From Candidatus Thiodiazotropha sp. CDECU1 (lineage in GTDB: Bacteria > Pseudomonadota > Gammaproteobacteria > Chromatiales > Chromatiaceae): a DNA stretch of 64,000 bases. Below are positions 50,975 through 54,029 of the stretch, piece after piece. The notes beneath the pieces are model-generated. The model saw only the letters and a list, made by a program, of their open reading frames with translations, did no database searches and was not told the origin of the DNA. The position numbers and the translations under genes are program-made. Numbering within the stretch: the stretch's first letter is position 1; each line of letters begins with the position of its first letter. The stretch spans positions 806,001-870,000 of the forward strand of contig NZ_OY734020.1 in the NCBI RefSeq assembly GCF_963455295.1. Reading direction: 5' to 3'.

Positions 50975-53974
50975 ATGGTTGATATAAATGTAAAGCAAAT
51001 CTTCCTAAGCTACAGCAGCCCCGATCAGGATCAGGTCGAGCAGATCGCAAGGCGGCTCGACAGGGAGGGCTACAAGGTCTGGTATGACAATGCCAGCCTG
51101 GTGCCTGGGGAGAGTTGGTCCGATGCCCTGGATAAAGGATTGCGTGGCAGTTCCCACTGCCTGGTTTTCGTCGGTTCTGATAGATTAAATCCCTGGCAAC
51201 ATGAAGAGGTTCGTACAGCCATAAACCGGGCTGTCAGAGAGAGAAGTGAGTTTCGGCTTATACCCGTGCTTTTGCCTGGGGTGAAAACCCAGCCGGGTGA
51301 AAGTGAGTTACCCGAAGGGATAATGAATCGTCACTGGGTTCAATTCAAAACATCGGTGGATGAAGAGGATGCCTGGCGCCGTTTGATCAGTGGTCTGCAG
51401 GGTAGGGAACCCGGTTTGCCTCTCGAGGGTGAGACTGGTCCCTGTCCCTATAGGGGTATCGGTGTCTTCAATGTGGATGATGCCGATAATTTCTACGGGC
51501 GGAGATCGATCACCGACTCAATACTCGCTCGCCTGCGGGAGCGGGTCACTCAACCGGGTCATCCCCGCTTTTTTGCCATCATCGGTCCCTCGGGTACCGG
51601 CAAATCCTCTTTGGCAAGAGCCGGTGTTATGGCCGGCATCGTCAAAAAAGGGATGTTGGATGATTGCGGCCGATGGGTTCATCCTCCATTGATATTCAAG
51701 CCCGGTACTCGTCCCCTCCATGCCCTTGCGCTGGAATTGATCAAGCATGATGCCACCAGACAGCGCTTCTCACCATGGAGTGTGGCAGAAATTGAGTCCA
51801 AATTGCGGGAACCGGTGGATGGCGAGCACAGATTTCTCAGTGACGAAGTCGCTGCGGCCCTGCAGGGAGATGCCTACCTGCCGGTGCTTGTCGATCAGTT
51901 CGAGGAGCTGCTGAAGCCGCTGACAATGTCGGCAAGCGGTGATGAGGAGGCCCAGCGTAACCTTGAAAAGTACCATCAAAATCAGTTGCTGCCCTTTGTC
52001 GGCAATCTCTTCTTCGCTGCAAGGCAAACCCCCGGCCGCCTGCTCTTCATCGTCACCATGCGTGACGATTTTTACGGCCAGTGCGCCTTCGACCAAAGGC
52101 TGGCGGCACTGGTCAGTGAGAATCACAAACTCCTTACCCCCATGACCCCCGACGAGTTGCGTGAATCCGTAGAGCAGCCAGCCAGGTTAAACGGTAAGGC
52201 GGTAGAGCCTGCGCTTCTGGCCCTGATACAAAGCGACATGCACAACCGGCCGGGTGCCATGCCGCTGCTGCAGGATGCCCTGGAACAGCTGTGGGACAGA
52301 TGCGGAAAGACACTCACAAGCCGTGTCTATACCGAAGAGGTGGGTGGCATCAAAGGTTCGCTGAAGAGCAAGGCGGATCACACCTATGGCGGCTTGACAG
52401 ACCAATCCAGGCTCGCTACCGAATTACGGCAACGAAGAGAGTCGCTTATCCGACAACTGTTTCTCGATCTGGTCGACCAGGGCAGCGGTGTCCCGACCAG
52501 CCGCCGTCGGGATCGCAGTGAACTACCGGACGATACCGAAATGGACGAAATCCTGGACGCCTTCGTCAACGCCCGTCTGTTGCTCAAATCCCACGACAAA
52601 GCGAGTGACAAAACCTACTTCGAACTGACCCACGAAGCCCTGATCGAAAACTGGCCCAAACTCAAGGATTGGTTGAAAGATAAACAGGAGGACGATCAAA
52701 TCCGCCAGCGCCTGGAGCAGGAGGCGGCCCGATATGCCAACGAACAGGAGCAGTACCAGGATAAGCCCGAGAAATGGCGGCAGATAGAGCCGGAGTTTTT
52801 AATGAAAAACAAGCGCTGGGTCGAAATGGCGCATTGGCTTGAGGGTAATCCGGTCTCGCCAAGTCAGTTGGCGGTGAGGTTCATCGATCGCTGTCGGACC
52901 TATTCACAAGAGCAGAAAGCGCGGAGCTGGAAGCGGGGCGGTTTGGCCCTTCTGGGTTTGATGATAGTTGTCCTGTTGGTGTCGTTCAGCTATGTAAAGC
53001 TGACCCATAACGAGTTGCAAATATCTGTTGTCGATACGGAGGGAAAGGCCATTGACGATTATCGACTGTTTGTCAGTAAGGAGCGTTCGACGTTGGCTGA
53101 CGGTTCAGTTCGGTGGTTCCGATCAATTTTCGTGGAACCCAATCAGAATTACTGGTTACGCATTGAGAGGGATGGCTATTTTCAGTCGGAGCGCGAAACC
53201 CTAACCGGCCATGCCGGGAGTACAAAAGAGCTGGAATTGACGCTCTATCCACAGGTAGCGCCAGAAATGGTCGAGATTGAGGAGGGTGAATTTGACATGG
53301 GTTCTGATCCCGAAAATGATAGCGATGCTGGCAGTGATGAGCAGCCCCAACATCACGTTGAGATCAAGCCTTTTTACCTGGGAAAATACGAAGTGACTTT
53401 TGCGGACTATACAGTCTTTGCCAATGCCACCGGTCGTGAGCTTCCCGATGATGAAGGTTGGGGTCGTGATCGGCGGTCGGTGATCAATGTAACCTGGGCG
53501 GATGCGGTGGCCTATGCCGAGTGGCTCTCGCAACAGACCGGCAAGCGCTACCGGCTGCCCACCGAGGCGGAGTGGGAATACGCGGCCAGGGCAGGCAGCA
53601 CCACGAATTACAGTTGGGGTGATGATATCCGTCAGGATAATAAGGTCTGGGCCAACTGCGATGGCTGCGGCAGCCAATGGGATGGCAAACAGACAGCGCC
53701 AGTGGGTTCCTTCGAACCGAATGCCTTTAGCCTTTACGATATGGCGGGCAATGTCTGGGAGTGGACCCAGGATTGTTGGCATGATGATTACCAGAATGCG
53801 CCGTCCGATGGCTCGGCCTGGCTTGAGAGTGAGCAGGTAATTTGTGGCCGGCGTGTGGTCCGTGGCGGTTCCTGGAACGGCGTTCCGAGGAGCCTGCGGT
53901 CCGCCTACCGCGTCAGGTTCAACCCAGTCGTACGGTTCGACTTCCTGGGATTTCGTCTCGCCCAGGACCCATAA
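50975..53974 (+). CDS. TIR-nSTAND ATPase-TM-FGE protein with DGR variable region
   Basis: 999 aa multidomain protein. TIR ~5-140 ([31 protein letters not shown], Glu in WQHEEVRTA). nSTAND1-type ATPase ~160-600: [20 protein letters not shown], Walker A [9 protein letters not shown] at 203-211, Walker B [12 protein letters not shown] near 305. Membrane helix ~654-677. A PEGA-like beta module ~685-755. Formylglycine-generating-enzyme-like (SUMF1/FGE) domain ~760-999 with [39 protein letters not shown] and RGGSW...LGFRLAQ. The catalytic Cys pair of true FGEs is not evident, so it is probably a ligand-binding fold. The last 38 residues look DGR-diversified. Probable sensor/effector of a conflict system. 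Confidence 0.9.
   Translation: [999 protein letters not shown]
53861..53971 (+). other. candidate DGR variable region (VR)
   Basis: The 3' end of the FGE domain. Fixed codons for RGGSWN, P-R, L-R-S-A, R, N-P and LGFRLAQ alternate with variable codons (ggc, gtt, agc, tac, gtc, ttc, gtc, gta, ttc, gac, ttc). Almost all of these can derive from AAC/AAT-type template codons by changing only adenines. This is the adenine-specific pattern of diversity-generating retroelements; FGE/C-type-lectin folds are their usual targets. No template repeat or reverse transcriptase is in the window, so diversification would act in trans or be extinct. Confidence 0.7.
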
Positions 53975-54010
53975 CCCTTTATACTCTTTTCTTTTACCCT
54001 TTGGGGGGTT

Positions 54011-54029
54011 CAGGGGGCGAAGCCCCCTG
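54011..54029. other. hairpin downstream of the VR (IMH-type cruciform candidate)
   Basis: Perfect 8-bp stem cagggggc / gccccctg with a GAA loop, 37 nt after the stop codon. It is not followed by a T-run, so it is a poor terminator. DGR target genes carry a hairpin/cruciform just after the VR that is needed for mutagenic homing (established for phage BPP-1). Confidence 0.55.

Follow-up and report, generated by a model that had tools for sequence, protein, structure and literature searches.

The closest described counterparts of the system considered here are diversity-generating retroelements (DGRs) of clade 5D, in which the target proteins combine a central STAND NTPase with a C-terminal C-type lectin (CLec)/FGE domain, as in DGR 3 and DGR 6 of Thiohalocapsa PB-PSB1 (PMC10907252; this and the other papers cited are represented by excerpts). 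The excerpts of that paper name TIR among the N-terminal effectors of the STAND–CLec/FGE targets, and present the STAND-type sensor role of the Thiohalocapsa targets, in anti-phage defence or kin recognition, as a proposal. They also report loci without a reverse transcriptase (RT) or template repeat (TR) of their own, together with action in trans, for DGR 1, 3, 4, 5, and 7 of PB-PSB1 (PMC10907252). For the RT-less DGR fragments of Nanoarchaeota, the options of a fossil or a remotely diversified target have already been named (PMC4372165, in excerpt), and the survey PMC8144416 is, by its own statement in the excerpt, blind to remote targets. Neither the STAND–FGE type of DGR target nor the incomplete DGR is new to the literature. 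The present analysis deals with a gene of Candidatus Thiodiazotropha sp. CDECU1 that encodes a TIR–nSTAND1–FGE protein with a DGR-type variable region (VR) at its C-terminus, located in a window of 64,000 nucleotides (contig NZ_OY734020.1 of assembly GCF_963455295.1, positions 806,001 to 870,000 of the forward strand; Table 1). It is considered likely that this gene is a DGR-shaped immune receptor now parted from its mutator, and that its VR is fixed unless a compatible DGR arrives.

The target protein has the architecture effector – STAND NTPase – CLec/FGE (Pfam domains), and the VR occupies the C-terminus of its C-type-lectin-fold domain, as indicated by Pfam, the structure model, and Foldseek. 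Like the targets of DGR 3 and DGR 6 of PB-PSB1, it joins nSTAND1 to a C-terminal FGE/CLec domain that bears the VR, but unlike PB-PSB1, which possesses several DGR RTs, its genome yielded none, and the neighbouring gene encodes a TPR-S–patatin protein (PMC10907252, in excerpt). The window VR has no RT, and was therefore not placed in the RT-based clade 5D. The presence of a VR at a locus without its own RT or TR is shared with the incomplete DGRs of PB-PSB1 and with the fragments of Nanoarchaeota, whose genomes, however, hold other DGRs, whereas none was found here (PMC10907252 and PMC4372165, in excerpt). The literature search recovered no paper joining a DGR with FGE-sulfatase and TIR, none on a DGR in Thiodiazotropha, and none joining any two of TPR-S, patatin, and nSTAND1.

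The signature of the VR is found in its codons. The 13 positions read as asparagine codons of the template are occupied by AAC, GGC, GTT, AGC, TAC, GTC, TTC, AAC, GTC, GTA, TTC, GAC, and TTC, of which 12 end in C or T. For comparison, 187 distinct C-termini of 32 codons were assembled, that is, 32 TR-like sequences, 43 TR-linked VRs, 18 control FGE paralogues, 93 others, and the window itself. Only C-termini of exactly 32 codons that fit the motif were kept, here and in the counts of hairpins, tracts, and junctions, the others being dropped, and the controls are conserved non-VR paralogues, picked by motif rather than blindly. At the 10 core asparagine positions, the window has nine codons ending in C or T, against 8–10 (mean 9.56) in the linked VRs and 4–8 (mean 6.33) in the controls, while the residues K, E, Q, M, and W, which are unreachable from AAC by mutation of adenines only, number zero in the window, 0.16 on average in the linked VRs, and 1.78 in the controls.

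Compared with the best-fitting of the 32 TRs of its relatives (that of locus L134), the window VR is changed at 25 of the 33 template adenines and at 10 of the 63 other bases. The Fisher p-value for this adenine-directed contrast is 1e-8 for the window and 6e-5 for the best control, although the window and the controls were each scored by the best of 32 TRs, so these values provide a ranking rather than exact probabilities. Differences outside the adenines are to be expected, since the templates belong to relatives and that of the window was not found. On codon composition and base changes, the window C-terminus groups with the TR-linked DGR VRs, apart from the ordinary FGE paralogues. The codon endings and the contrast with the controls bear out the proposal of an earlier note, made from the DNA letters alone, that a DGR-type VR closes the TIR–STAND–FGE protein. 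Judging by this pattern, a DGR RT would once have copied an asparagine-rich template into the segment with errors at adenines, leaving codons derived from AAY.

A scan of contigs with the window protein recovered 79 loci, and an ungapped comparison of 161 loci produced 22 VR–TR pairings in 14 loci, with 0–7 differences outside adenines and 8–22 at adenines per 108 bases. The filter required non-adenine differences of at most 10%, and adenine differences that were at least six and at least twice the non-adenine ones; the adenine excess is thus partly the product of selection. The templates of the relatives read like RGGSWNNNPRNLRSANRNRNNPDNRNNNLGFR. In 11 of the 14 TR-bearing loci, there is also an RT that bears GNLTSQ, the motif of DGR RTs; the remaining three comprise L096, with a weak RT match (41.7 bits) devoid of this motif, and L082 and L099, with no RT. 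Of 20 further regions, most of them surrounding DGR RTs from the same family, 15 had TR-like rows, with one out of register and two repeating L069 and L119. The closest FGE domains are those of a Nitrosomonas metagenome-assembled genome (67%), followed by G064, another genome of this family (63%), in which the FGE target adjoining the closest FGE relative bears an N-terminal TIR. A single TR lies amid four FGE genes in L134, each of which carries a different VR.

The sequences that flank the VR provide further marks. The two bases past the YYAG junction at the end resembling an initiation of mutagenic homing (IMH) site are GA or GG in 19 of the 23 scorable linked VRs (22 of 45 being unscorable), and TA or TC in 13 of the 22 scorable TRs (12 of 34 unscorable), with GA in two TRs; the window VR has GA. 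A pyrimidine-rich tract, defined as at least two CTTT or CTCTT in the 35 nt past the stop codon, follows 29 of 39 TR-linked VRs and none of the 18 controls, and is present in the window. When scored at a fixed distance past the motif, it accompanies 30 of 45 linked VRs, as against none of 34 TRs. This tract is possibly a homing signal; CTTT-rich tracts lie downstream of VRs in many loci, for example, L089, L098, L107, L129, and L134. No claim is made that the tract is unreported, the literature matches for DGR and pyrimidine-rich, among those listed, being nearly all unrelated. From the comparison, two simple marks of a VR can be read without a template, namely, the codons ending in C or T at the template-asparagine sites, and a tract that follows VRs and not TRs.

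The perfect hairpin behind the tract, with its 8-bp stem, GAA loop, and no T-run, is as the earlier note described it, except that it lies 36 nt past the stop codon, rather than 37, and 42 nt past the end of the VR. Within three mismatches, it occurs once in the window, plus its own reverse complement. Hairpins such as GCAGGGGCGTAGCCCCTGC stand behind the VRs of the Nitrosomonas loci L086, L091, and L109, with a longer one in L085, and C(GNA)G triloops recur in L085, L086, L109, and one VR of L091. The hairpins of phage DGRs are described, in the excerpt of PMC3240598, as stems of 7–10 bp with 4-nt GRNA loops, 4–34 bp from the VR. The window resembles the hairpin/cruciform of the phage BPP-1 DGR in having a GC-rich stem of 8 bp behind the VR, and differs from the phage hairpins in its GAA triloop and greater distance (PMC3240598, in excerpt).

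The genome consists of one contig of 4,463,383 bases, and is 99.97% complete. A PF00078 search returned two RTs, for which the best PADLOC models are RT_VI in one case, and RT_other, followed by the retron outgroup, in the other, while the best NCBIfam model of both is the retron St85 RT, below the cut-off. As a diversifier, both were rejected, being retron-type. A profile built from six DGR RTs matched only one of them, at 21.6 bits, in comparison with 575–628 bits for the six rows used to build it and 333–478 bits for six further DGR RTs; neither PF00078 nor this profile, then, detected a DGR-type RT in the genome. These retron-type RTs lie near 673 kb (L003) and 1861 kb (L002) of G000:C1, the present chromosome, one behind an open reading frame of helix-turn-helix type and the other between two nucleotidyltransferase-like frames (names read from the frames). 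The search of the whole genome for a TR (E <= 10) recovered only the VR itself and four matches of 17–20 bases (E 0.13 to 3) when the VR was the query, and the VR (E = 3.7e-22), then nothing below E = 0.76, when the inferred template was used. The non-VR matches of both searches span 14–28 bases, which is chance level. Besides the target, the genome has two FGE genes, which are of EgtB/SenA type by reading, with no family search made, and have no VR motif.

No complete DGR was thus found in the assembled chromosome, these searches having recovered neither the RT nor the TR. The earlier note had envisaged a DGR elsewhere in the genome that diversifies the gene remotely, and had recommended a search for a near-repeat beside a DGR RT; that search retrieved no TR and only retron-type RTs, and speaks against this part of the proposal. 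The note had looked to the genome or its relatives for an RT and a template, and to homologues for variation at template adenines; no DGR RT or TR was found in the genome, yet the relatives hold both, and their VRs differ mainly at template adenines. The VR is most likely stranded and fixed, given that neither a DGR RT nor a template was found in the chromosome.

In the family, the DGR-RT profile matched at E <= 1e-45 in 26 of 210 genomes and 15 of 61 genera, and in no genome of the genus (at most nine candidates scored per genome). Some RT match at E <= 0.001 is found in nine of the 22 genomes of the genus, and the motif GNLTSQ is present in one RT alone, a frame of 248 aa in G019 from which the N-terminal part is missing (L190, G019:C6:28000-46000). 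Next to this truncated RT lie its own TR and a number of FGE targets. One of these targets (L190:5977-8718) shares 25% identity with the window protein where it aligns to the TIR–STAND part, and MoxR-like AAA and TIR-type genes lie nearby (names read from translations, no family search). The G019 DGR is decayed, and DGRs look almost gone from the genus. As a source of the window VR it was rejected, given that its TR differs at 24 non-adenine positions of 108.

Table 1. Features of the locus, in positions of the window
Feature	Position	Strand	Basis or remark
Target gene, 999 aa, TIR–nSTAND1–transmembrane–FGE	50975..53974	+	Open reading frame and domain search
TIR_2 domain, residues 9-138	50999..51388	+	Pfam, E = 3.6e-26
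nSTAND1 NTPase, residues 158-593	51446..52753	+	E = 2.2e-88; Walker A GPSGTGKS at residue 204
Likely transmembrane helix, strongly hydrophobic (residues 656-674)	52940..52996	+	Hydropathy scan, single such segment
FGE-sulfatase (C-type-lectin-fold) domain, residues 762-996	53258..53962	+	Pfam, E = 3.4e-58; structure model and fold search
DGR-type VR; candidate variable codons between 53876 and 53944	53861..53968	+	Codon pattern, comparison with relatives
Conserved 3' end of VR (IMH-like), VR-type junction CAG|GA	53945..53968	+	Comparison with relatives
Pyrimidine-rich tract CCCTTTATACTCTTTTCTTTTACCCTTTG after the stop codon	53975..54003	+	As after most TR-linked VRs
Hairpin CAGGGGGC-GAA-GCCCCCTG, perfect 8-bp stem, GAA triloop	54011..54029	+	No T-run behind
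Upstream neighbour, 914 aa, three hydrophobic segments; domains TPR-S (57-191) and patatin (337-602)	48199..50943	+	Domain search
Island	47718..54309		In the congeners G006 and G019, ~100-120 bp separate the flanks

The fate of the VR could also be read in other ways. A plasmid or episome outside the one-contig assembly could carry a DGR, in which case the VR might still be diversified in trans by an element missed in the assembly, on a plasmid, within a prophage, or in a fraction of the population. This appears unlikely. The intact reading frame, the IMH-like end, the tract, and the hairpin are all compatible with it, as are the trans action and the population variants with intact DGRs reported for Thiohalocapsa in the excerpts of PMC10907252, and DGR-like RTs are carried by 17 of 72,556 plasmid records (E <= 1e-30). 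Against this stand a one-contig and nearly complete genome in which neither a TR nor a DGR RT was found, and a genus whose 22 genomes offer a single, truncated DGR-type RT. It is very improbable that the C-terminus is that of an ordinary FGE domain, with a loop pattern that merely resembles a VR. The RGGSW...LGFR frame is, admittedly, conserved in ordinary FGEs, the asparagine sites correspond to loops that vary in the ordinary members too, and an adenine-directed contrast exists in some of the controls, but the codon endings and the amino-acid set of the window are like those of the TR-linked VRs, the codon endings lying outside the range of the controls, and it possesses both the tract that no control has and the VR-type junction.

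The third alternative, considered rather unlikely, is an in-place loss of the DGR within this lineage, the target not having been brought in alone. It would agree with the presence of DGR RTs in 15 of the 61 genera of the family and with G019, which retains a TR and several FGE targets, one of them with a TIR–STAND-like N-terminus, beside the RT that has lost its N-terminal part. However, the flanks of the locus (46686-47717 and 54310-55600) lie about 100–120 bp apart in both G006 and G019; this near junction defines the TPR-S–patatin and target genes as an island of ~6.6 kb, which looks gained, or else lost at least twice, and the 24 non-adenine differences also separate the TR of G019 from the window VR. 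A viral origin was rejected, as the closest locus on a viral contig is 46% identical (79 loci kept, the best 80 of 143 confirmed). The target protein has only weaker relatives in the genus, in G019 and G005 (E <= 1e-40, at most three candidates scored), and no homologue of its patatin partner was found in the compared loci of 2 kb or more, besides its own copies and G097.

In G097, which belongs to the same species, the patatin gene is present on a contig that is 95% identical and stops at window position 50937. A search there, with all 24 candidates scored, found neither the target gene nor the right flank over its first 400 bases, and the absence is probably an assembly gap, given that the contig stops at this point and the right flank is also missing. 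As a source of VR alleles, this genome led nowhere, because the contig breaks at the gene.

A number of observations weigh against a VR shaped by a DGR and then stranded, or limit the evidence for it. One of the 13 template-asparagine codons, GTA, requires a change outside adenine, and no TR that matches the window VR at all non-adenine positions was found in any genome searched, the best-fitting still differing at 10 of 63. Among the 93 other C-termini, for which no TR lies in the fetched stretch, 69 have 9–10 codons ending in C or T, so VR-like ends without a TR are common; this is no proof that they are stranded, as many of the fetched stretches are short. With the window's own copy (L208) set aside, the tract follows just 26 of 56 other VR-like genes. 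A hairpin (stem of at least 7, loop of 3–5, within 100 nt) follows just 12 of 39 linked VRs and eight of 56 other VR-like genes, and the same criterion retrieves three of 18 controls and 33 of 1920 mononucleotide shuffles, so that the hairpin by itself is weak evidence for a DGR. The stretch after the VR, as a whole, does not fold as DNA more stably than shuffles (z = -1.15). The block of model residues 211–220, which holds part of the VR, has a mean pLDDT of 63. No second copy of the target gene, on which the sites of VR variation might be seen, was detected by DNA in the 22 genomes of the genus (up to 13 candidates being scored in each).

If the gene is, as preferred here, a DGR-evolved receptor separated from its mutator, it may be suggested, tentatively, that such receptors can travel and persist without the mutator, and that the island represents one selected, frozen specificity with intact homing signals. 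Given these signals (the IMH-like end, the tract, and the triloop hairpin), a compatible incoming DGR could restart the diversification. With no DGR found in its complete chromosome, the gene offers a case for asking whether a fixed specificity is useful after the loss of the mutator, or whether continuous hypermutation is needed.

The model of the FGE domain has a mean pLDDT of 84.7 and a pTM of 0.87, and 10 of the 13 template-asparagine positions fall outside helices and strands, as counted on the secondary-structure string of the model. PvdO is the top match of the domain by both sequence and fold, and the fold search recovered PvdO, FGE enzymes, and a Treponema variable protein. The window domain has the same fold as PvdO and the formylglycine-generating enzymes (FGEs), and resembles the FGE fold of the Treponema denticola variable protein 1 (PDB 2y3c; Foldseek E = 1.8e-15, phmmer E = 1.5e-17). 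The latter is a known DGR target, as the title of a cited reference also states, and is not known to be fused to TIR–STAND domains. Unlike the FGEs, the window protein has non-cysteine VR residues at the positions of the two C-terminal cysteines (LCHDSYC), as seen in an alignment to four PDB FGE sequences; these cysteines are the catalytic pair of the FGEs.

By analogy with the antiviral STAND proteins, and in line with the proposal for the Thiohalocapsa targets (PMC10907252), the target most likely works as a membrane-anchored receptor of immune type. Sensing would fall to the FGE patch, the binding of a ligand to its surface leading to assembly of the STAND ATPase, and nSTAND1 would be the switch, the assembled ATPase activating the TIR effector. 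If the TIR–STAND part is cytoplasmic, the single transmembrane segment would place the sensor on the periplasmic side. The neighbouring patatin might perhaps be activated too; its gene lies on the same strand and ends 31 bp before the start of the target gene.

Further upstream, the window contains what looks like a filamentous-phage (inovirus-type) prophage (38687-43428), with a gene for a replication initiation factor (Rep_trans, 38687-39829) and a Zot-domain gene (42319-43428), the Zot domain being most likely that of a phage assembly protein. A second gene with a TIR_2 domain, encoding 328 aa (44690-45676), is located between this prophage and the island.

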